This document shows, piece by piece, positions 8,878 through 39,194 of a stretch of 39,194 nucleotides of DNA. The position numbers were made by a program, and so were the translations under genes. Location: positions 1 to 39,194 of IMG/VR virus record IMGVR_UViG_3300005264_000118; one strand, given 5' to 3'. The notes beneath the pieces were generated by a model. That model was not told where the DNA came from and did not search any database. It saw only the letters and a program-made list of their open reading frames with translations. The stretch is from a virus. Every line of letters starts with the position of its first letter. Position 1 is the stretch's first letter.

Positions 8878-8885
8878 AATTCTCC

Positions 8886-9013
8886 TTTTTTTAACCACGA
8901 ATGAACACGAATTCACACGAAGTAATTAATTATTATCATTTTGACAACATCTTTTCGACTTGAAAATGTAGCCCAAGTTTCCAACTTGATTTTTTTGTCG
9001 TCCGCAATCAACA
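8886..9013. repeat. 128-bp direct repeat, copy 1
   Basis: This copy matches 9269-9396 with one mismatch. It joins three dispersed repeat types: the 'aaccacgaatgaacacgaa' type, the 'gtagcccaagt' type and the 'gtccgcaatcaac' type. It lies directly upstream of the MazG-like gene, so transcripts of both downstream genes carry the same leader. Confidence 0.9.
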
Positions 9014-9044
9014 AAAATTGGCGATTGACTTTCCCAAAAAATGG

Positions 9045-9260
9045 TTACTCTATAAAAACAACACCTTCGTCCACTTCATTATAAGGCATATTAAATTTAA
9101 AAGAGCACGATTTACAATAGTAGTCCACACCTACATAATAATCACCTTCTCCAGTTTCACCAAAAATTTCAGGCAACCCGCAATTCGGACACTTAAACTC
9201 CGTCTTTTCCAATTCAACATCATAAAAAGTTCCATCATTTTTTATATACCGCGCTTTCAT
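9045..9260 (-). CDS. Small zinc-ribbon protein
   Basis: A 71-residue protein from the start at 9260 (MKARYIKNDGTFYDVE), preceded by an AGAGAG-type ribosome site. Cys pairs CPNCG (residues about 23-26) and CKSC (about 47-50) form a four-Cys zinc ribbon. The role is unknown. It lies between two copies of the 128-bp repeat. Confidence 0.6.
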   Translation of the reverse strand: MKARYIKNDGTFYDVELEKTEFKCPNCGLPEIFGETGEGDYYVGVDYYCKSCSFKFNMPYNEVDEGVVFIE

Positions 9261-9268
9261 AACTCTCT

Positions 9269-9396
9269 TTTTTTTAACCACGAATGAACACGAATTCACA
9301 CGAAGTAATTAATTATTATCATTTTGACAACATCTTTTCAACTTGAAAATGTAGCCCAAGTTTCCAACTTGATTTTTTTGTCGTCCGCAATCAACA
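9269..9396. repeat. 128-bp direct repeat, copy 2
   Basis: Second copy of the compound repeat at 8886-9013, with one base difference. It lies between the terminase and the zinc-ribbon gene. Both copies make a spurious N-terminal extension (MNSCSFVVKK) if the upstream ATG is used. Confidence 0.9.
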
Positions 9397-20007: not shown

Positions 20008-21243
20008 TCAAATCTCGAATATTTTGGGGTAAACCGATTCCCTCAACTGATCCAAAGAAGGTTTTCCAGGTATTCCACCTTTTGCAAGTCCTTTCATTCC
20101 ATCCCGATTTAATTGAGAAAGCACCACGACCGGGATGTTAAGTTCTAACGCTAATGCCTTCATCCGGCGACTTATATACGCAACCTCGTTTTCTCTGCTC
20201 GAATGTCGGTTTTTGCTTCCCATTAACTGAAGATAATCGATTACTATCAAGGAAAGATTAGGTTTCTCCATTTTTAATCGTCTGCATTGGGACCTGATTT
20301 GTGTCGGTGAAAGATCGATTGTCTCGTTGATGAAAATTTCTTTGTCTTTGAAGAATTGAACTGATTGATATAAACCCTGCATATCTTTGCTCGTAAGAGC
20401 TCCGCTCTTTATGTTTTGACCATCAACATAACCATGTGATGACAACATTCTTTTCAAAAGCTCTGTAACGGACATTTCCAAAGAAAAAACGGCGACAGCG
20501 TTTAATATCGGTTTTTCTGACTTTTTGTTTTTAGGAGTGTTCCAAATCTTTGAAGATACTGTTTCCACTATATTGAGAGCTAAAGCAGTTTTTCCGATAG
20601 CCGGACGTGCTGCTATAATAATAAGTTCGCCACCCATAAACCCGGATGTCAAATCGTTTAACTCTGCAAACCCGGTATCTATCCCCGCAAGCCCGCCGCC
20701 ATGTTTTGCAAGTGCATCAAGCTCTTCTACTGTTTTTTTCAAACCGTCAAAAATGGAAATAAACTCGCTTTTATTTCCTGATTGACTTATTTCTAACATT
20801 AATTTGTCGCAATCTTCAATATAACTTTCATTATCAAGATCAAACGCTTTATTATAGAAAATTTTACCCGCTTCCATATAAACTCTACGCTTATAATATT
20901 TGAGAATTATTTCCGAATAATACTCAAAATTGCTGGTTGTAGGTATCCCTTCTGTCAACCCTGCCAAATACTCTTCTCCGCCCACTTTCTCCAAAATCTT
21001 TTTTTCGTTCAGCTTTACGCAAACGGTTATCATATCAACAGTTTTTTCTTCCTGAAAAAGTTCTAAAATTACTGCGAAGATTTTTTGATGTGCGGGAAGA
21101 TAAAACACTTTTGATGACATCATATCTACGCCTTGAAGCACGCAAGTAGCATCTAACATCATCGCTCCCAAAACCATTTGCTCTGCACGCAGCGAATTAG
21201 GTGGAACTCTTTTATTTTCAGTTTTTTGTGTTTCGTTTTCCAT
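20008..21243 (-). CDS. dnaB: Replicative DNA helicase, truncated at the C-terminus
   Basis: A 411-residue protein. The N-terminal domain (PNSLRAEQMVLGAMMLD, then FYLPAHQKIF) and the RecA domain with Walker A ARPAIGKT (212-219), Walker B LIVIDYLQLM and VVVLSQLNRD are standard DnaB. It ends SLDQLRES-VYPKIFEI, exactly before the conserved ESGxIEQDAD block and the arginine-finger region that full-length DnaB (about 450 residues) has. Downstream frames do not continue the family. The loss should prevent normal hexamer ATP hydrolysis unless another subunit supplies it. It lies next to the initiator-like gene. Confidence 0.85.
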   Translation of the reverse strand: MENETQKTENKRVPPNSLRAEQMVLGAMMLDATCVLQGVDMMSSKVFYLPAHQKIFAVILELFQEEKTVDMITVCVKLNEKKILEKVGGEEYLAGLTEGIPTTSNFEYYSEIILKYYKRRVYMEAGKIFYNKAFDLDNESYIEDCDKLMLEISQSGNKSEFISIFDGLKKTVEELDALAKHGGGLAGIDTGFAELNDLTSGFMGGELIIIAARPAIGKTALALNIVETVSSKIWNTPKNKKSEKPILNAVAVFSLEMSVTELLKRMLSSHGYVDGQNIKSGALTSKDMQGLYQSVQFFKDKEIFINETIDLSPTQIRSQCRRLKMEKPNLSLIVIDYLQLMGSKNRHSSRENEVAYISRRMKALALELNIPVVVLSQLNRDGMKGLAKGGIPGKPSLDQLRESVYPKIFEI

Positions 21244-21621: not shown

Positions 21622-22473
21622 TCAACATTTTTTGTCGTTCACAACCGACAATTTATGTTGATTGAGAATATTTACAAACAATAACATCACTTTCTTCCGC
21701 TTGCGTTTTTTTCTTTCCGCAACTTTTCGCTGATTATATTTTTTTCTATATTCAGGATTTTCGAGTCTTTTTTGTTCGGCTTTTCTCTTATTTTCATTTA
21801 TTTTTCTACGTTCTTCCGGATTAGCCATTTTTCTTTTTAAACTTTCACTCGATTTTTTTTTGATATGCTCACGCCACTCCAAATCTTCCCAATACTTTTT
21901 TTTGCGGAGTTCACGGCTTCTTTCATTTCGTTTTGCCCGATACTCTGGGTTCTTTAGTCTTTCTTTTTCCCGCTCCCAACTTTTTTCATTTTCCCTCTCC
22001 CTATTTTTCTCTCTCCACTCGCGGTGGTTAGCACTTCTTTTTTTTGCAAATTCAGGTTCTTTCATTTTTTTTCGTAACCATTCTCGCTGCATGAAATTTT
22101 TACGATTGCGCTTTTCAGGGTCTCTACTTTCTGCTTTTCTTTTTTCCCGCCATTCCGGATCTGTTGCATACTTTTTTCGCCGATTGTAATTAAAGTTTTC
22201 TAACCAACCAGTTTTTTTTCTTATATTTCTCATCCATTCTTTGTGATATTTTCTATCACAATATTTACAAAAATAAGAAAACCCATCTTTATCGCGATTG
22301 TTTGGACGAAAATTCCCTTCAACATCCTCAAAAAACTCCCCGCATTTATTACATACTTTTCCTTTCTTAAATCCATACTTTTCAAAAACAGATTTATGTT
22401 TTCCGGAAAGAACATCAGGCAATATAAATTTATGATAGTCTGATCTATCTTGATTGAAATTAGTAGTTTTCAT
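21622..22473 (-). CDS. Zinc-site protein with charged helical repeats, paralog of the next gene
   Basis: A 283-residue protein. The first 45 residues are identical to those of the neighbouring gene at 22481-23443 (MKTTNFNQDRSDYHKF...). A CNKCG ... CKYC pair forms a zinc knuckle like those before many phage HNH nucleases, but no HNH motif follows. The middle (about 95-250) consists of degenerate charged units such as NPEYRxKR, DPEWREKR and NPEERRK, a long helix. The last 28 residues match the paralog except for one residue and are coded by a dispersed repeat (VMLLFVNILN...). It may bind DNA or RNA. Confidence 0.6.
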   Translation of the reverse strand: MKTTNFNQDRSDYHKFILPDVLSGKHKSVFEKYGFKKGKVCNKCGEFFEDVEGNFRPNNRDKDGFSYFCKYCDRKYHKEWMRNIRKKTGWLENFNYNRRKKYATDPEWREKRKAESRDPEKRNRKNFMQREWLRKKMKEPEFAKKRSANHREWREKNRERENEKSWEREKERLKNPEYRAKRNERSRELRKKKYWEDLEWREHIKKKSSESLKRKMANPEERRKINENKRKAEQKRLENPEYRKKYNQRKVAERKKRKRKKVMLLFVNILNQHKLSVVNDKKC

Positions 22474-22480
22474 TTTTTAA

Positions 22481-23443
22481 TCAACATTTTTTGTCATTCA
22501 CAACCGACAATTTATGTCGATTGAGAATATTTACAAACAATAACATCACTTTTTTACGCTTGCGTTTTTGATAATATTTGCGATTCCTTTCCGCAATCTT
22601 TTCCCGGTTGTTTTCCCGATATTTGCGATTCTTTTCCGCAATTTTTTCCCGGTTGTTTTGATAACATTTGCGCTTCTTTTCCGCAATCTTTTCCCGGTTG
22701 TTTTGATAATATTTGCGATCCTTTTCCGCAATTTTTTCCCGGTTGTTTTGATAATATTTGCGCTTCTTTTCCGCAATCTTTTCCCGGTTGTTTTGATAAT
22801 ATTTGCGCATATTTTCCGCAATCTTTTCCCGGTTGTTTTTTTGATATTTGCGATCCTTTTCCGCAATTTTTTCCCGGTTGTTTTCCCGATATTTGCGCTT
22901 CTTTTCCGCAATCTTTTCCCGGTTGTTTTGATAATATTTGCGCATATTTTCCGCAATCTTTTCCCGGTTGTTTTCCCGATATTTGCGCTTCTTTTCCGCC
23001 ATCTTTTCCCGGTTGTTTTCCCGATATTTGCGCTTCTTTTCCGCCATCTTTTCCCGGTTGTTTTGATAATATTTGCACATATTTTCCGCAATCTTTTCCC
23101 GGTTGTTTTGATAATATTTGTGCATATTTTCCGCCATCTTTTCCCGGTTGTTTTGATAATATTTGCGCATATTTTCCGCAATCTTTTCCCGGTTGTTTTC
23201 CCGATATTTGTGGAAATATTCCGAAAAACAGGATTTGCATATTAAAGCAAACCCATCATTTTTATTTATATTTCTCCAAAAATTCGCTTCAACATTCTCA
23301 AAAAACACCCCACATTTATTACATACTTTTCCTTTCTTAAATCCATACTTTTCAAAAACAGATTTATGTTTTCCTGAAAGAACATCAGGCAATATAAATT
23401 TATGATAGTCTGATCTATCTTGATTGAAATTAGTAGTTTTCAT
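22481..23443 (-). CDS. Zinc-site protein with fourteen 15-residue repeats
   Basis: A 320-residue protein. Residues 1-80 hold the zinc knuckle (CNKCG and CKSC) shared with the paralog. Residues 83-292 are 14 perfect-length repeats of NNREK(I/M)AEx(K/N)RKY(Y/R)(Q/E), which predict one continuous, highly charged helix. Units with Arg-Glu endings and units with Tyr-Gln endings alternate irregularly. Similar YYxxNREKI arrays occur in phage and viral proteins with HNH or nucleic-acid binding, but no nuclease motif is seen. The gene starts directly before the stop of the next upstream gene, so the two are likely coupled. Confidence 0.7.
   Translation of the reverse strand: MKTTNFNQDRSDYHKFILPDVLSGKHKSVFEKYGFKKGKVCNKCGVFFENVEANFWRNINKNDGFALICKSCFSEYFHKYRENNREKIAENMRKYYQNNREKMAENMHKYYQNNREKIAENMCKYYQNNREKMAEKKRKYRENNREKMAEKKRKYRENNREKIAENMRKYYQNNREKIAEKKRKYRENNREKIAEKDRKYQKNNREKIAENMRKYYQNNREKIAEKKRKYYQNNREKIAEKDRKYYQNNREKIAEKKRKCYQNNREKIAEKNRKYRENNREKIAERNRKYYQKRKRKKVMLLFVNILNRHKLSVVNDKKC
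22568..23197 (-). repeat. 14 x 45-bp in-frame tandem repeat
   Basis: Fourteen 45-bp units coding for 15 residues each, with high identity (core ttttcccggttgtttt on the plus strand). Variation is concentrated in two blocks: the KK/NM/KD pair and the YRE/YYQ end. All lengths keep the frame, which points to expansion and contraction by recombination under selection for protein coding. Confidence 0.95.
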
Positions 23444-29383: not shown

Positions 29384-30589
29384 ATGCCTACCTATGATAA
29401 AAAAAATAATAATTATCGCGCAAGATTCTTTGTCTTACAAAAAAATAATAAAAAAAAAAGATTAACAAAATCTTTTCCTGATAAAAGACTCGCGGAACTT
29501 TTTGAATATAAAAAAGATATTGAATTCTTCTTCGCAAAAACTAATACCGATTATAAAAGATTGTCTGATTATGAAATTGATATTTGGATTGATTCCTTTT
29601 TGAAAAGAAGAATTGTACCGGCTCATATATCTCGCGCTAACTTAAAAACCGTACTCGCACAACACCTGAAATCAAATAATAAAATTTCCGTAAATATCCT
29701 CGATGCTCTTAAAAATCATGTCGAACGCCTGAAACTTAAAAATACTTCCCCTTCTACTATAAAAAATTATAGCAGCTATATTAAAAAAATTGCTGAAGCT
29801 TTAGAATTTCTTAATATCACTTACCATAACGAAATTGATGTTGATCTTAATATAAAGGTTAAAGAAATTTTTCCGGACGTGTCAAACAGAACTATTGATA
29901 TTTATATTAATTGTATTAAAGCGGCCCTAAAATCCGCAAGAACTCCAGAAGGCGATTGGAAATTTATAGAAAAGCTTGATACTATGCCTAAAACCAGACA
30001 ACTTATGTCCGTTGATGAAATTGATAACTTCCTCGCCGCTGCTAAAAATTACCGCCCGAACGTAAAACTAATCAATAACCAACCATATTGGCACTCGCTT
30101 TTTTATCTCCTGTTCATAACCTCACGCCGATTAAAAGAAATAACTCACAGAAAATGGAAAGATGTACGCACCGACCTTAATATCCTCATCATTGAAAAAC
30201 AAAAAGGAAATGCAGGCCCAGTATATTGCCCGATCAATGATGAAATTATGGCGGGAATCCTCAAAATTAAAAATAATATTGATCAGGAACAATATATTTT
30301 CCCAAACTCAAACCAAAACCCGATTACAAACCAAATCGTTGGAAAAACTTTCAAAAAAATTGCCCAAGCCGCAAACCTGCCCGCAAAATATTCTCCCCAC
30401 TACCTGCGACACGCCTCAATAACATATCTCGCATTAATCAACCCAGACGTAGGCAACAAAGAAAAAATGGCTATAAGCGGGCATAAATCAACTTCAGGCT
30501 ATAATATTTACAATCACCTTATCACTACAATTCAATCAAACATTAAACTCCCAACAATAAACTCCATAAAAAAAGCATTAAAAAAATAA
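29384..30589 (+). CDS. int: Tyrosine integrase
   Basis: A 401-residue protein. The N-terminal arm-binding and core-binding domains (SPSTIKNYSSYIKKIAEALE) are followed by the catalytic domain: Arg in TSRRLKEI (248-249), Lys around 274, H339-Y-L-R342, H367 in GHKS and nucleophile Tyr376 in YNIYNHL. The start lies two bases after the stop of the secreted-protein gene. The tRNA-Gly fragment 220 bp downstream is its likely attachment site. It catalyses integration and, with a directionality factor, excision. Confidence 0.9.
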   Translation: MPTYDKKNNNYRARFFVLQKNNKKKRLTKSFPDKRLAELFEYKKDIEFFFAKTNTDYKRLSDYEIDIWIDSFLKRRIVPAHISRANLKTVLAQHLKSNNKISVNILDALKNHVERLKLKNTSPSTIKNYSSYIKKIAEALEFLNITYHNEIDVDLNIKVKEIFPDVSNRTIDIYINCIKAALKSARTPEGDWKFIEKLDTMPKTRQLMSVDEIDNFLAAAKNYRPNVKLINNQPYWHSLFYLLFITSRRLKEITHRKWKDVRTDLNILIIEKQKGNAGPVYCPINDEIMAGILKIKNNIDQEQYIFPNSNQNPITNQIVGKTFKKIAQAANLPAKYSPHYLRHASITYLALINPDVGNKEKMAISGHKSTSGYNIYNHLITTIQSNIKLPTINSIKKALKK

Positions 30590-30594
30590 CATTA

Positions 30595-30613
30595 CATTTA
30601 TGTACCATTTTTG
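30595..30613. repeat. 19-bp direct repeat, copy 1
   Basis: catttatgtaccatttttg just after the integrase stop is repeated exactly at 30920-30938, at the end of the next gene. The pair flanks the terminator and the tRNA fragment. It may be an arm-binding or recombination remnant. Confidence 0.7.
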
Positions 30614-30772
30614 CGAAGCGCAACCTTAAAAACCCTTAAAAACCAACATCTAAAAACAATTTCAATAACTTCAAAATCTGTGGCGCCTAAAAACAAAAAA
30701 TCCTCTTTTTTTATTTTCAAAACGCCCGGCCTCCTATAAACACTATTAAAATTCAATCATAATAGGCAAAAG

Positions 30773-30804
30773 AAAACCCTGTGGAAATTTTTCCACAGGG
30801 TTTT
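30773..30804. terminator. Strong hairpin terminator downstream of the integrase and tRNA
   Basis: AAAACCCTGTGG (30773-30784) pairs with CCACAGGGTTTT (30793-30804) around an 8-base loop, with T-runs on both strands. It can stop the integrase transcript on one strand and the tRNA transcript on the other. Confidence 0.8.
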
Positions 30805-30808
30805 ATTT

Positions 30809-30855
30809 TGGAGCGGGCGATCGGATTCGAACCGACAACCATCTGCTTGGAAGGC
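30809..30855 (-). tRNA. 3' part of tRNA-Gly(TCC), likely att core
   Basis: On the minus strand, positions 30855-30809 give the anticodon loop CTTCCAA (anticodon TCC), the 3' anticodon stem GCAGA, variable loop, a perfect T-arm (GTCGG TTCGAAT CCGAT), the acceptor strand CGCCCGC, discriminator T and encoded CCA. The 5' anticodon stem is lost after two bases and no D-arm or 5' acceptor follows. This is the classic core carried in phage attP or left at a prophage end. It is not a functional tRNA. Confidence 0.85.
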
Positions 30856-30919
30856 TTTTTCTAACAATCATAACACCTTGAAAATAGTATAGTTATAATA
30901 TTATTTAATAAATACTATT

Positions 30920-30938
30920 CATTTATGTACCATTTTTG
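30920..30938. repeat. 19-bp direct repeat, copy 2
   Basis: Exact copy of 30595-30613. It spans the stop codon of the minus-strand gene at 30923-31243. Confidence 0.7.
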
Positions 30939-32082: not shown

Positions 32083-32516
32083 ATGAAAATTGACAAAAAA
32101 ACAAAATTGACAGGTCCGGCGGCTATTGCAGAAAAGCAAGCATTGAACACAATTAAAAATAATAAACGATTTGAAAGATCAAGCTTATTGTTTTTATCGA
32201 TGAAATTGACGGCATGACACAGGCCGCGGAAGAAATTTTTTTAGATGCAACACAGTTTGAAAATTTAATCCTGGTTGCAACTTCAAATAAATTAAAGAGT
32301 GATTTTAATGATCGTTTTCAATCGCGTTTCGAGATACATGACGTTGTCGCGCCAGAATGTAAAGATATAGAAAATTATTTGATTGATCAATTTTCTATTA
32401 GTCAAGTGGTTGCATCGCGTGTTGCTGATAGTTGCGGCGGAGATGTAAGGGCCGCTATTACTGACGCATTAAGAGTGCAGCAGTTGCTTGACAATCCGGA
32501 ACTTATGGCGGCGTAG
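32083..32516 (+). pseudogene. Frameshifted, internally deleted AAA+ ATPase
   Basis: A 44-codon frame from ATG 32083 (MKIDKKTKLTGPAAIAEKQA...) stops at 32215. A second frame open from 32175 reads KIKLIVFIDEIDGMTQAAEE (Walker B with DE), LILVATSNKLKSDFNDRF (sensor 1 and arginine finger) and SCGGDVRAAITDALR (sensor 2). The Walker A loop is missing, so the N-terminal half is largely deleted and the parts are out of frame. It resembles clamp-loader or similar AAA+ proteins of about 300 residues. The promoter and ribosome site are intact, so the short first frame is probably still made. Confidence 0.7.
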
Positions 32517-33196: not shown

Positions 33197-33685
33197 ATGA
33201 AAACACAAATCAGAAAAAAAGTAATTAGATTTGCAAAAAAAAGAGTTGAAATTGAAGGGCTTGGACACCCTGAACTTGCCGCCTTGAAAACTGGAAAAGT
33301 TGATTTTTGCGATACCACATACACACATTTTGACGTTTTTTTGGAAAAAGAAGCAGAAAAAGGTTATGACGAAAACGATATGATAGTTAAGCCATACATA
33401 TCAACTCATAGCGTATGGTATAGTTGGTTGAATGTAACAATTACCAACATACACACCGGCGCAAGCATTGATGGATGGGAAAGACTAATTTTCCCAAAAA
33501 GAAAAACGTATCAAAAAGACTTTTTTTTGCCGGAATTGGAAAAAGAAAAAGCTGAAATTGAAAAAAGACGTGCGGAAAAGTTAGAAAAAAGCTTGACCTA
33601 CTACAAAGAAGAAAATATAGAATTAAAAGTTCTAATTGAAGATCTTAAACTGAAACTGGAAATTGAAGAAAATATAGAAAAATAA
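33197..33685 (+). CDS. Hypothetical protein with C-terminal coiled coil
   Basis: A 162-residue protein (MKTQIRKKVIRFAKKRVEIE...) with AAAGGAG before the ATG. N-terminal 100 residues are mixed strand and helix (KVDFCDTTYTHFDVFLEKEA; NVTITNIHTGASIDGWERL). Residues 113-162 form a charged coiled coil. Not recognised. A GC-rich double hairpin leader lies at 33089-33180. Confidence 0.55.
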   Translation: MKTQIRKKVIRFAKKRVEIEGLGHPELAALKTGKVDFCDTTYTHFDVFLEKEAEKGYDENDMIVKPYISTHSVWYSWLNVTITNIHTGASIDGWERLIFPKRKTYQKDFFLPELEKEKAEIEKRRAEKLEKSLTYYKEENIELKVLIEDLKLKLEIEENIEK

Positions 33686-33693
33686 TTTTTCTA

Positions 33694-33799
33694 TTCCAAT
33701 CCTTGTCGGGCGGGGCCGAGACCCCGCCGCGCTTTAATGGATGCCCTCTGTGGGACTTGAACCCCCCACGCTTAGAAACATTATAACATATTAATACTA
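33694..33799. repeat. 106-bp perfect direct repeat, copy A
   Basis: Identical over 106 bases to 35844-35949. The left part is a GC-rich hairpin (GCGGGG-CCGAGA-CCCCGC). The right part on the minus strand reads GTGGGGGGTTCAAGTCCCAC followed by AGAGGGCA, similar to the T-arm and acceptor end of a tRNA with an anticodon-loop-like TTTCTAA. The helicase fragment begins exactly at its right end. Confidence 0.95.
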
Positions 33800-34441
33800 G
33801 TAGAAACGCCAACGATTGTATGGTTTGCTCATGAATTTAACACGTACATAATGCCACAGGCAAACCGCAGAAGCTACCGCCTGCATCAAACAAAAGATGT
33901 CGAGATTTATTACCTTGCATACAACAAAACTGCGCAAGCCGATGCAATGGTAAGAATCGCCAAAAAATTAAAAGCGCAACAGCAACTTCAAGGAGATGTC
34001 GCATCAGGACTTGCAAAACTTCAAAATGAAGATGATTTTGTAGATGATATCCAAGCAATAGTTTCTGATCACCAACACCACGAAACAGAAATTGAGTTAT
34101 CAGACCTCCCAGAACTTCCGGCACAGCTAAACCCGGAAATAATCAAAACCGCAGAAATCAGTTTTTTGTTGAAACTCCAAACAGCAAAACAAGAAACAAA
34201 AGCAAAAGCAGCAGCAGCTAAAAAACGCATTAAATTTGAAAAACAGAAAACAGAAAACGGAGGAAACAGAAATATAAATGCAATGTTATTCGATCTGTTA
34301 GAAAGCAAACAAGAAGCCGCAGAAATAGAAACCGCCGCCGCAGAACTCATAAACAACGCAAAAGAAATCGCGGCGCAAACAATAACAGTTGATACCTTTG
34401 GCGGAAATCTTTTTGCGCTTGAAGATATGATTACAGCGTGA
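33800..34441 (+). pseudogene. C-terminal fragment of a SNF2-type helicase
   Basis: The frame is open from the right end of the 106-bp repeat; ATG at 33851 could start a shorter product. VETPTIVWFAHEFNTYIMPQ, then ANRRSYRLHQTKDVEIYYLA and YNKTAQADAMVRIAKKLKAQ is the last helicase domain with motif VI (QANRRSYRLHQ), typical of the large SNF2-like helicases of integrative conjugative elements, which exceed 1000 residues. All N-terminal motifs are absent. A charged linker ends in VDTFGGNLFALEDMITA, a tail shared with the next protein. Probably a dead fragment created by recombination at the repeat, though a short product could still be made. Confidence 0.7.
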
Positions 34442-34595
34442 AAAATGGTTAATTGTTAATGGTTAATTGTTAATTGTTAATGGTTAATTGTTAATGGTTA
34501 ATTAAACAAACGCCGGAAGACCCGGCAACCGGAGCGAGGCCGAAAAACCCCGCAAGCGAACCGGCGCAACCGGAACAAAAAAGGAGTTTTATATT

Positions 34596-35156
34596 ATGAA
34601 AAGAATCAAACTAAATAAAAAAAGCACAGTAATTTTCAAAAAATTAATCGAAGATTTAACGTGGGAAAACAGCAGCAGAAAAATTGACACTACAGAAAAT
34701 ACTTTTCTACCAGTACACGTTGAACTAATAGGAGCCGCCGGAAGCTGGAACCTTTACAGCATAGCACACTATGGACAACAAAACGGCGATGCTATGCGTG
34801 ACCCAGACGTAACATTTTATCATTATAAAAAAGAAAATATTGAAGCAGTAATACCATCAACTTTCAGAAATGATTATATTGGAAAATTTGACGAAGTCGC
34901 AATCATTGACGAAAACGACAAAATAAAAACCGCACCCAAAGCATTAAACAACTTAATTTCTTTTTGTAATATATGGCTAACCAATATCAAAAACCAACAG
35001 CCAGATTATTTTAAGCCACCAAGAGCAAAAGCACAGAAAGAAAAGAAAGCCACACAAGCGACACAGCAAGAAACCGCCGAAAACACAGAAACAAACGTAA
35101 ATACTTTCGACGGCAACCTGTTTGATATGTCAGAAATTTTTAACCTGGCAGCGTAG
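34596..35156 (+). CDS. DUF6908-like mobile-element protein
   Basis: A 186-residue protein with AAAGGAG before the ATG. LYSIAHYGQQNGDAMRDPDV, FRNDYIGKFDEVAIIDENDK and NLISFCNIWLTNIKNQQPDY match the DUF6908 pattern seen on plasmids and integrative elements. A low-complexity Ala/Thr/Gln linker (residues 145-170) leads to the tail NVNTFDGNLFDMSEIFNLAA, similar to that of the helicase fragment. Function of the family is unknown. Confidence 0.65.
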   Translation: MKRIKLNKKSTVIFKKLIEDLTWENSSRKIDTTENTFLPVHVELIGAAGSWNLYSIAHYGQQNGDAMRDPDVTFYHYKKENIEAVIPSTFRNDYIGKFDEVAIIDENDKIKTAPKALNNLISFCNIWLTNIKNQQPDYFKPPRAKAQKEKKATQATQQETAENTETNVNTFDGNLFDMSEIFNLAA

Positions 35157-35268
35157 AAATATAATTGTTAATGGTTAATTGTTAATTGTTAATGGTTAAT
35201 TTAATAAACGCCGTTTCAATTGACAAAAAATGTTGATTGAAATCGACAAAAAAAAGGAGATTAAAATT

Positions 35269-35811
35269 ATGAAAACATTATTTATATATCAAACAAATGA
35301 TCAAAAAAAAATATTTTTTTTCGCAACAAATCATCAAAATATAGACCGAGCAGTCCCATCTTCTGTTGAATATTATATCTGCAAAAATCAAAACGAATAT
35401 AATAAAATTATGTCAAAAAAAATAAATGTAGATGAAATCGACTGGCAAAATCTATCAACTTCATATTACTTTGAAGGCGATCATTTGTTAGAAAGCGATT
35501 TGCGAAATTTGCAAAAAAAAGAAAATGCAAAATTGATTATCGGAAGAAACGACGGTGAACTTTGGAATATAATTGACGGAGATTATTGGAATTTCGAAAC
35601 CGCAATATCATATTATGATGGCAATAACGAAAGAATTCGTTATTTAAATTATGAAGATACTGTAGAAATTATTGAAGAAATCGACCGCGACCCCGAACCG
35701 GCGTTTTATTTTTCAAAAGATTTAAAAATCAAATACGAATCGGGCGCAATAGAAAATATAGCAATATCCACATCAAACACTTCAGGGTACTTAACCCCAT
35801 GGTGGGAATAA
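35269..35811 (+). CDS. Hypothetical protein inside the repeat-flanked segment
   Basis: A 180-residue acidic protein from the start at 35269 (MKTLFIYQTNDQKKIFFFAT), chosen because AAAAGGAG precedes it. An upstream ATG lies in a dispersed repeat. Strand-rich pieces are KLIIGRNDGELWNIIDGDYW and AISTSNTSGYLTPWWE. No family recognised. Confidence 0.55.
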   Translation: MKTLFIYQTNDQKKIFFFATNHQNIDRAVPSSVEYYICKNQNEYNKIMSKKINVDEIDWQNLSTSYYFEGDHLLESDLRNLQKKENAKLIIGRNDGELWNIIDGDYWNFETAISYYDGNNERIRYLNYEDTVEIIEEIDRDPEPAFYFSKDLKIKYESGAIENIAISTSNTSGYLTPWWE

Positions 35812-35843
35812 TAAAAAGCGCAGGGAGCGAAAAAATAAATTTT

Positions 35844-35949
35844 TTCCAATCCTTGTCGGGCGGGGCCGAGACCCCGCCGCGCTTTAATGGATGCCCTCTG
35901 TGGGACTTGAACCCCCCACGCTTAGAAACATTATAACATATTAATACTA
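35844..35949. repeat. 106-bp perfect direct repeat, copy B
   Basis: Second copy of 33694-33799. It ends 27 bases before the start of the tyrosine recombinase at 35977, so it is the natural candidate for that enzyme's site. Confidence 0.95.
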
Positions 35950-35976
35950 ACATATTAATACAAAAAAAGCAATATT

Positions 35977-36873
35977 ATGAAAAAAACCGATAAATATATA
36001 GACTTCCTGATTTTATCCGGAAAAGGCGAAAGCTATCAAAACGCAGCAAAAGGAGCTATAAACATTTTTAAAAAATACACCGGCCAAAGCGCCGCCCGAA
36101 TGAACCCATCAAATATAAAAAAATTCGTAATTAGGGCGACCGAACTTGCAACCGATGAAAGAAAAAAACACACTATCGCCCAGCGATACCAAATGTTAAA
36201 ACAAATCGCGCTTTATTTTGAAAATGTCAAAGCCCTAAAAATGCTAAATACAATCGACATAAAAGGTCGATTGAAAACCGAAAAACCAGGGCCATTAACA
36301 GACAACTGGAAGAGCAAAGCTCTGTCTCGGACAGATATTCAAAACGTGCTGGCAGCAATCCCAACCCGCCAAACCTGGATCAAACCAATTGTAATGTTAT
36401 ACATCACCACCGGCGCAAGATTGAACGAATTGACCCACCTTAAATTTGGAGACATAGCGGAAGACTTTTCTAATATTATAGTCCTGGGAAAGGGAAACAA
36501 GCGGCGCAGGATTGAACTCACAAACCCAACTGCTCGGGAAGCGTTGAAGAAATACGCACAATGTAGGTCATGCGTCTCGCTTGACAGTTTTGTGTTCCAA
36601 TCACAAAAAATAGGTTGTCCGCATGTTTCTAACAGGGCAGTGCAATACCAAATAAAGCGGATTTTTAAGGCACTAAACATAGATGTCCCTGGAAGGAATG
36701 TTCATTGTTTCAGGCATACTTTTATCACAGAGAAAATCAACAGCGGAGTGCCACCCCACATAGTAGCCGAAGCCGCAGGACACGCAAGCGTGGACACTAC
36801 TTTGAAACATTATCTACACCTTGACCGGAAGAAAGTCCGGGAGGAGCTGATGACCGCACCGGAACTTTTTTAA
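35977..36873 (+). CDS. XerC/XerD-like tyrosine recombinase
   Basis: A 298-residue protein of standard Xer length. The N-terminal core-binding domain (1-105) precedes the catalytic domain with Arg148 (TTGARLNELTHL), Lys172 (GKGNKRRR), His243-x-x-Arg246 (HCFRHTF), His269 (AGHAS) and Tyr279 (TLKHYLHL). All catalytic residues are present. It differs from the integrase at 29384 and lies directly right of repeat copy B. It could resolve dimers, integrate the element, or move the segment between the repeats. Confidence 0.85.
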   Translation: MKKTDKYIDFLILSGKGESYQNAAKGAINIFKKYTGQSAARMNPSNIKKFVIRATELATDERKKHTIAQRYQMLKQIALYFENVKALKMLNTIDIKGRLKTEKPGPLTDNWKSKALSRTDIQNVLAAIPTRQTWIKPIVMLYITTGARLNELTHLKFGDIAEDFSNIIVLGKGNKRRRIELTNPTAREALKKYAQCRSCVSLDSFVFQSQKIGCPHVSNRAVQYQIKRIFKALNIDVPGRNVHCFRHTFITEKINSGVPPHIVAEAAGHASVDTTLKHYLHLDRKKVREELMTAPELF

Positions 36874-37007
36874 TAATGCAACCCAAGTTTATGACTTGAA
36901 AACTATTTGAAAATTTTTAAGAGAAAGAGTATAATAAAAAACCGGAAGCGGCCATTAAACCGCAAGCGAGCTGAACGCTATTCAGCAAATTTAAGGAGAC
37001 AAATCTA

Positions 37008-37628
37008 ATGAAAAAATTGCAACATTTCACAGGCGTAAGACCTACCGATCCGAAAGGCTGGGCAAGCGAACTTCAATCTTTTGACGGTTATATTTATGGT
37101 ACAAATTACAAAACAGTTATCAGAAAAAAAGGAGTTTTGGAAAAGCAACCCGAAATTGTAATTAACGACAATGCGAAGAAATCAATCAGAAGTTTTTTCA
37201 ATTCGAAAAAAATATCTGATGAAAGAATTTTTAGTCCCGCCTATTTAAAATCTATTCTAAATAGTAAAGTCAAAACCAAACAAACGGAAACAGATTGCAC
37301 CTATTGCGATGGCGATGGCGATGCAACCGCAAAAATTTATCACAATTCGAGAATTTATACTTTGCGAGGTGATTGTCCTGTTTGCGAGGGGAGTGGCACC
37401 ATAACAGCCGAAGAAAAATTTATTCAAGCAAAAGAACTAATTTTTGCGCCAACAAATTCTATTGAAAAAAATAACAAGACAATAGAATTCAAAAAGCAAT
37501 TAAACTTATTAAATTGTTTTGAAACCGATTTTTCTTTTTGGCAAGCTGAAGGTAATTTATTGATAATCAAAACCGGAGAATATGATATTGCAATGGCTAT
37601 GTGTAATTCTGAAACCGAGGAGGAATAA
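37008..37628 (+). CDS. DnaJ-type zinc-finger (CxxCxGxG) protein
   Basis: A 206-residue protein with AAGGAG before the ATG. CTYCDGDG (about residue 98) and CPVCEGSG (about residue 126) are two CxxCxGxG motifs that form one DnaJ-like zinc finger. The N-terminal VRPTDPKGWASELQSFDGYI is not recognised, and no J-domain is present. Similar proteins occur in mobile elements. The leader at 36940-37000 contains two hairpins. Confidence 0.65.
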   Translation: MKKLQHFTGVRPTDPKGWASELQSFDGYIYGTNYKTVIRKKGVLEKQPEIVINDNAKKSIRSFFNSKKISDERIFSPAYLKSILNSKVKTKQTETDCTYCDGDGDATAKIYHNSRIYTLRGDCPVCEGSGTITAEEKFIQAKELIFAPTNSIEKNNKTIEFKKQLNLLNCFETDFSFWQAEGNLLIIKTGEYDIAMAMCNSETEEE

Positions 37629-37717
37629 TAATTAATCAAGTCATAGACTTGGGTTACATTTAATTACTTCGTGTTCATTCGTGTCCATTCGTGGTTAAAA
37701 AAAGGAGATAAAAAAGT

Positions 37718-37963
37718 ATGAAAAAAAATATCAGATATTTCAACCTCAATAATTGGAAAATAGAGCCGGACGAACCAAAGCCGGACCCCAAAGCACTTTC
37801 GGCAAAAACCGCTTTAATTTCTTTTTTAATCATGGTTGTTGTATGGCCGACTGCAAATTTCATTGATTGCTCTTTTGGATATTTTATGGTCTTTATAATT
37901 TTTTTTATTTTGGCAATAATTAATATTAGTGATATTTATATGCAACTTTCAGAAAATAATTAA
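37718..37963 (+). CDS. Small membrane protein with two helices
   Basis: An 81-residue protein (MKKNIRYFNLNNWKIEPDEP ...). Hydrophobic segments are TALISFLIMVVVWPTANFI and YFMVFIIFFILAIINISDI. AAAGGAG precedes the ATG. The N-terminal 25 residues are soluble and Pro-rich. Function unknown. Confidence 0.55.
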   Translation: MKKNIRYFNLNNWKIEPDEPKPDPKALSAKTALISFLIMVVVWPTANFIDCSFGYFMVFIIFFILAIINISDIYMQLSENN

Positions 37964-38032
37964 TTCCATTCGTGGTTAAAAAAAATATAAAAATCAAGTC
38001 ATAGACTTGGGTTACATTTAAAAATAAAAATT

Positions 38033-39087: not shown

Positions 39088-39090
39088 TAG

Positions 39091-39194
39091 TATTGAATTA
39101 TTGAATTATTGAATTATTGAATTATTGAATTATTGAATTATTGAATTATTGAATTATTGAATTATTGAATTATTGAATTATTGAATTATTGAAT
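39091..39194. repeat. 8-bp tandem repeat array (tattgaat)n at the window edge
   Basis: Thirteen exact copies of the octamer tattgaat fill the last 104 bases. The sequence ends inside the array, which probably marks an assembly break. Confidence 0.95.

Follow-up and report, generated by a model that had tools for sequence, protein, structure and literature searches.

How did two identical copies of a 106-bp sequence come to bracket a 2.15-kb gene segment, one copy directly upstream of a tyrosine recombinase gene (int2) and the other fused to the remains of a helicase gene? The DNA analyzed (hereafter the window) is an IMG/VR virus record of 39,194 bases, an environmental/metagenome contig. An earlier note on this DNA had proposed that the recombinase joins foreign segments at a core within the repeat, so that repeats and cargo accumulate beside it. 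We tentatively favor a different reading, at a probability of roughly 45%: the locus holds a duplicated tRNA-derived attachment (att) site and a decayed, integrase-less 2.15-kb unit that accreted beside Int2 in a phage.

The two copies, A (33694–33799) and B (35844–35949), both annotated on the minus strand, are direct repeats with a spacing of 2,150 bp. As the earlier note described, identity is exact over 106 bp, and the copies diverge at once on both sides. No exact repeat in the window is longer; the next two (86 and 79 bp) both fall in simple or tandem arrays, and the others of ≥50 bp belong to simple arrays, to a tandem-repeat protein, or to two duplications of a gene or leader. Flanks differ on all four sides. 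On the left of copy A is a 162-aa ORF (33197–33685, plus strand) that stops 8 bp before the copy and has no relation to the sequence left of copy B. Each copy is ordered as a GC hairpin, a tRNA 3′ end on the minus strand in the middle, and a 28-bp AT-rich arm ending in ACATATTAATACTA. The hairpin, GGCGGGG/CCCCGCC, had been claimed for each copy and is present, close behind an ORF stop codon in both cases (8 bp for copy A and 32 bp for copy B); folding of the whole copies is unexceptional (z of −0.98 and −1.54).

The tRNA-like 3′ end described in the earlier note is borne out and can be stated more precisely. On the minus strand, the middle of the repeat reads GTGGGGGGTTCAAGTCCCACAGAGGGCATCCA, a tRNA 3′ end. 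The 22-nt sequence GGGTTCAAGTCCCACAGAGGGC (minus strand) has one match in 2.9 million IMG/VR contigs, and this sole match is the exact 3′ end of a tRNA-Met gene, comprising the T-loop side, the T-stem, and the acceptor end. A 47-nt query against annotated phages matched mostly tRNA genes, on the right strand; the matches, each weak singly, include three tRNA-Ala records and a tRNA-Leu whose 3′ end is where the match stops. Judged from its sequence, the repeat holds a tRNA tail and not a tRNA, because three extra Gs interrupt the T-arm (GTGGG-TTCAAGT-CCCAC in tRNA-Met; the repeat has GTGGGGGGTTC where tRNA-Met has GTGGGTTC), a 5′ tRNA half was not found beside the 3′ end, and the repeat yielded zero calls in ARAGORN and no tRNA match in Rfam. 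No complete tRNA gene is present in the window, whose contig stops at 39194. tRNA tails are customary material of integrase sites, and the combination of such a tail with an adjacent recombinase gene bears out the earlier view of the repeats as integrase-site-like. The extra Gs are also a point against the accretion that we propose, as a working tRNA would not be rebuilt if the crossover occurred upstream of them.

Copy B, the probable native att site of Int2, ends 27 bp upstream of the int2 ATG (35977). Int2 (35977–36873, plus strand) is a 298-aa tyrosine recombinase (Pfam PF00589, E = 3e-23) and is intact, as previously noted, with a complete set of catalytic residues: R148, K172, H243, R246, H269, and Y279. 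It consists of a core-binding and a catalytic domain only, with no extra N-terminal domain, and its predicted structure likewise has two domains (mean pLDDT of 82.5 and pTM of 0.61). The best Foldseek matches of the model are XerA, Tn1549 Int, IntI4, and XerH, all above Brujita, and the fold is also Cre-like. In the usage of PMC8138268, Int2 is an Xer-type recombinase of the simple (armless) class; this class is a minority in phages, reported for 27 phages versus 410 with arm-binding-domain recombinases (PMC8138268). The best NCBIfam family is XerA, but Int2 scores well below the curated cut-offs of XerA (111.9 vs. 220 bits), XerC (92 vs. 335), and XerD (72 vs. 330), and we rejected its identification as any of these three chromosomal recombinases. 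Best matches to Int2 in plasmids and phages are <30% identical. Beyond the gene, in 36875–38018, the 25-bp sequence that directly follows int2 recurs inverted at 37636 and 37994, where the two occurrences make up a direct pair of 30 bp flanking a DnaJ-type zinc-finger gene.

The edge of the repeat facing int2 has a structure of its own. A tandem 12-bp repeat, ACATATTAATAC (35936–35961, with units at 35936 and 35950), straddles the right edge of copy B, and copy A keeps the first unit only (33786); ACATATTAATAC occurs at these three positions alone in the window. At copy B, the doubling yields TATTAATA-CTAACA-TATTAATA, that is, TATTAATA-N6-TATTAATA. Because a 12-bp repeat arose in only 17 of 5000 Markov shuffles of the 80-bp stretch, the tandem is probably a real feature, and it is a possible crossover core. 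To either side of the tRNA part, the copies have 43 and 28 bp in common. With sharing on both sides, A and B must descend from one parental site. Plain attL and attR sites need only a short core in common, and the 43 and 28 bp beside the tRNA part count against our reading.

Between the copies are three genes, all on the plus strand, and none encodes an integrase or transfer function. The first is a plasmid-type SNF2/DEAD helicase gene reduced to its C-terminal ∼210 codons (33800–34441), the second encodes a 186-aa DUF6908 protein (34596–35156; Pfam PF21849, E = 5e-26), and the third encodes a 193-aa protein (35230–35811) that has no family match in Pfam, PHROG, or NCBIfam and whose likely start may be an inner ATG at 35270, after AAAAGGAG. 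The first two were recognized in the earlier note, and the searches agree. The helicase fragment matches PHROG 62 (E = 1.3e-9) and aligns in tblastn with four SNF2/DEAD helicases from plasmids of Thermus, Rhizobium, Shewanella, and Lactiplantibacillus (E of about 1e-13 to 1e-14). The missing 520–660 N-terminal residues are absent from the whole window, as searched by tblastn with the four plasmid helicases.

Homology to helicases starts at 33791, 0–9 nt inside the right edge of copy A, and the DNA joint is therefore at this edge, within the helicase gene. A cut exactly at the right end of copy A had been claimed, which is nearly correct: the true joint is probably up to 9 nt inside the copy, in TTAATACTA. 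All four homologues have G-L-(D/N)-L-x-x-x-P-(T/S)-I-(V/I)-F and the frame of the window has I-L-I-L-V-E-T-P-T-I-V-W, with its first residues encoded within the repeat and an in-frame L-x-L common to 4 of 4 homologues. The chance of both leucines matching is about 1%, which argues for a joint inside the copy. The joint itself shows only short homology. The claim that a recombination joint formed at copy A thus holds for the DNA, which was joined inside a helicase gene, but the joint does not identify Int2 as its maker.

In plasmids, the DUF6908 protein has one match, a weak one (E = 5e-3), on a conjugative plasmid, where the gene adjoins an ArdC-family gene and is close to a primase gene; this agrees with a plasmid-type origin of the segment genes. 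The intergenic leaders of the segment are identical word for word to leaders in the phage body, and among the words that the phage body has in common with the segment or the right end are the 25-nt AATGGTTAATTGTTAATTGTTAATG and the 23-nt CATTCGTGGTTAAAAAAAGGAGA. These shared leaders suggest that the segment came from the same gene pool and is not plainly foreign, contrary to what had been supposed. A 22-nt core of CATTCGTGGTTAAAAAAAGGAGA has no match in viral contigs. Leader words preceding ribosome-binding sites (TTAATTGTTAAT... and CATTCGTGGTTAAAAAAAGGAGA) are found at 8881–9396, 34441–35204, and 37686–38000, in both halves of the phage.

Whether the repeats are in phage or host DNA can be addressed with a second recombination system. 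The phage's own integrase, Int1, is a 401-aa protein distinct from Int2 (29384–30589, plus strand; Pfam PF00589 and SAM_5), and its gene is followed by a probable intact attP at 30595–30938. Within this region are a terminator and the 3′ half of a tRNA-Gly(TCC) (about 30812–30860, minus strand), both bracketed by 19-bp direct repeats of CATTTATGTACCATTTTTG (30595 and 30920; 0 of 200 shuffles). The two repeats give the region the appearance of an intact attP with arm sites. If it is intact, the DNA on both sides is that of an unintegrated phage, and the 106-bp repeats are within the phage genome rather than in a bacterial flank. We considered the DNA from 31 kb onward as host DNA beside a prophage and do not favor it, since neither side of the Int1 attP looks disrupted. 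In the bacterial genome collection, no exact match was found to a 33-nt piece of the tRNA-Gly part, suggesting that the host lineage is unrepresented there.

Other parts of the window are also truncated, duplicated, or repetitive. At 32086–32516 is a clamp-loader-like (AAA) pseudogene in which an N-terminal stretch and the Walker B motif (LIVFIDEIDG) are in different frames, with the Walker A part gone from between them; its ORF at 32175–32516 is without the Walker A stretch, and the name comes from a reading of motifs, with no match in Pfam. The phage DnaB helicase (20008–21243) ends at position 198 of 255 of the C-terminal-domain profile, right after DQLRES, and the remainder of the domain may have been lost or displaced. 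Two adjacent paralogues at 21622–23443 have identical starts (exact repeats of 70 and 62 bp, 970 bp apart) and also bear Lys/Arg/Asn-rich repeats of about 45 bp. Octamers are arrayed in tandem at 2033–2216 and 39090–39194 (ATTTTATG and TGAATTAT); the contig ends inside the second array, which probably stopped the assembly.

We suggest that a tRNA 3′ end gave rise to the 106-bp repeat, which would serve as a recombinase attachment site and was duplicated beside Int2. Copy B would be the native site and natural parent of copy A, and copy A, a probable hybrid or duplicated att site, would be a joint in which the left part of the parental site was fused into the helicase gene near TTA-N3-CTA. In a first step, the site would have recombined with a similar sequence in a helicase gene, releasing a small circle with the helicase tail, the DUF6908 gene, the gene for the 193-aa protein, and one 106-bp copy. 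In a second step, the circle would have entered the site beside Int2, a tandem accretion of a decayed element resembling a CIME. Four lines of evidence lead us to this reading: the exact repeat has four differing flanks and a tRNA 3′ end in each copy; a recombinase gene with a full catalytic set and fold is 27 bp away; the helicase is truncated 0–9 nt from the repeat edge and its remainder is absent from the window; and the edge coincides with a half-site-like 12-bp tandem that is whole at B and halved at A. On this reading, Int2 and not RecA would have made the joint. The 2.15-kb unit would formerly have been a circle and may still be able to leave.

Searches for relatives count against this reading. 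Exact searches with 38-, 24-, and 24-nt pieces of the repeat found none in viral and genome contigs, blastn of the 106-bp repeat gave chance-level matches or none in plasmids and E. coli, and no further copies were found in the window or any collection searched. No close relatives of Int2, the helicase fragment, or the terminase were found in viral contigs, and among 44 viral loci with distant Int2-like recombinases, none has a comparable repeat beside the gene.

Several other processes could generate a locus of this appearance. The repeat could have been duplicated and the helicase gene cut by RecA or by illegitimate (microhomology) recombination as the accessory region decayed, with Int2 a bystander. 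We consider this doubtful but deserving of weight, given that the region shows decay elsewhere, as in the clamp-loader-like ORF, that the window has long exact repeats free of any recombinase (the 70- and 62-bp repeats above and others of 71 and 56 bp, 383 bp apart), and that homology at the joint is only short. A random duplication would, however, rarely include a tRNA 3′ end abutting a recombinase gene, nor does it account for a repeat edge that coincides with the 12-bp tandem before int2. Misassembly, in which a 106-bp sequence present in two molecules or places was wrongly joined and gave the appearance of a cut helicase, is unlikely. The contig is from a metagenome in IMG/VR, and the joint coincides exactly with a perfect repeat whose length is close to that of the longest k-mers in common use for assembly. 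Nevertheless, the phage body has leader words in common with the segment or the right end, indicating that the parts are from one gene pool, and any rearrangement of this sequence still leaves a helicase without its N-terminus.

A capture platform, as the earlier note envisioned, is improbable. Under such a model, a phage-borne, integron-like Int2 would repeatedly join circles bearing the 106-bp tRNA-tail site at its own site, so that multi-gene plasmid segments are picked up, new sites form inside target genes, and the segments are stacked beside int2; we find this fuller scenario equally improbable. The anatomy is suggestive, with a recombinase, an adjacent site, and one segment ending in the same site, and the ORFs preceding the copies stop 8 and 32 bp short of them, much as genes do before attC sites. 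But there is a single segment of three genes, one of them a fragment, and Int2 is far below the cut-off for integron integrases (52 vs. 265 bits), with no attC/attI core motif on either strand. The term platform requires several cargoes and is unsupported by one segment in one genome: the search for the 106-bp repeat with other cargo in related genomes, which had been suggested as a check, found none, and neither a second cargo nor a recombinant was found in the collections searched. Least probable of all, the copies could be ordinary terminators or dispersed intergenic repeats unrelated to recombination. Their GC hairpins come right after two stop codons, and the right-hand region has other small intergenic repeats, yet an exact identity of 106 bp that includes a tRNA 3′ end and an AT-rich arm exceeds the needs of a terminator, and no other copy was found in the window or in any collection searched. 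Tandem accretion of an integrase-less remnant accounts for everything observed, making a new platform unneeded. The observation is real and fits a kind of event already known, elements stacking side by side.

As it stands, the locus is a single instance of elements accreting and decaying. Were Int2 the maker of the joint, the locus would illustrate how small gene units without an integrase originate and come to rest next to recombinases of phages, with an armless recombinase recombining its own tRNA-derived site with a secondary site in a gene. It would also be a case of one phage with two unrelated tRNA-targeting recombinase systems.

Comparisons with known systems help to place the locus. 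As in integrons, a recombinase gene is beside a site and a gene segment ends in a second, hairpin-bearing site. Unlike in integrons, there is one multi-gene segment only, and the tests of integrase family and attC/attI core fail: along with the NCBIfam score, neither strand of 35844–35980 has a GTTRRRY or RYYYAAC core site, and we dropped integron identity. Int2 resembles the integrase of Brujita in being a two-domain, Xer-like phage recombinase without an arm-binding domain (PMC8138268), but Brujita Int is the main integrase of its phage, whereas the phage here also has a longer integrase, Int1, with a probable attP of its own. In Dehalococcoides, 15 tandem islands at ssrA are without an integrase module (PMC3146451). 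As in the window, these islands have direct repeats of an RNA gene 3′ end; they differ in having serine recombinases, 20-bp repeats, a complete ssrA, and many known islands (PMC3146451). Our reading also draws on CIMEs and tandem accretion at tRNA 3′ ends, as described for ICESt1-related elements of Streptococcus thermophilus (reviewed in PMC5704250). The locus differs from CIMEs in that it is in a phage genome, is only 2.15 kb, has 106 bp shared rather than a short core, and has no complete target tRNA gene in view. Like a CIME, it consists of integrase-less DNA between two putative att sites and adjoins an integrase-bearing element, and, as in some CIMEs, the att site is derived from the end of a tRNA gene. 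Decayed elements that are without an integrase but have att sites, in tandem with active elements, are common (PMC5704250).
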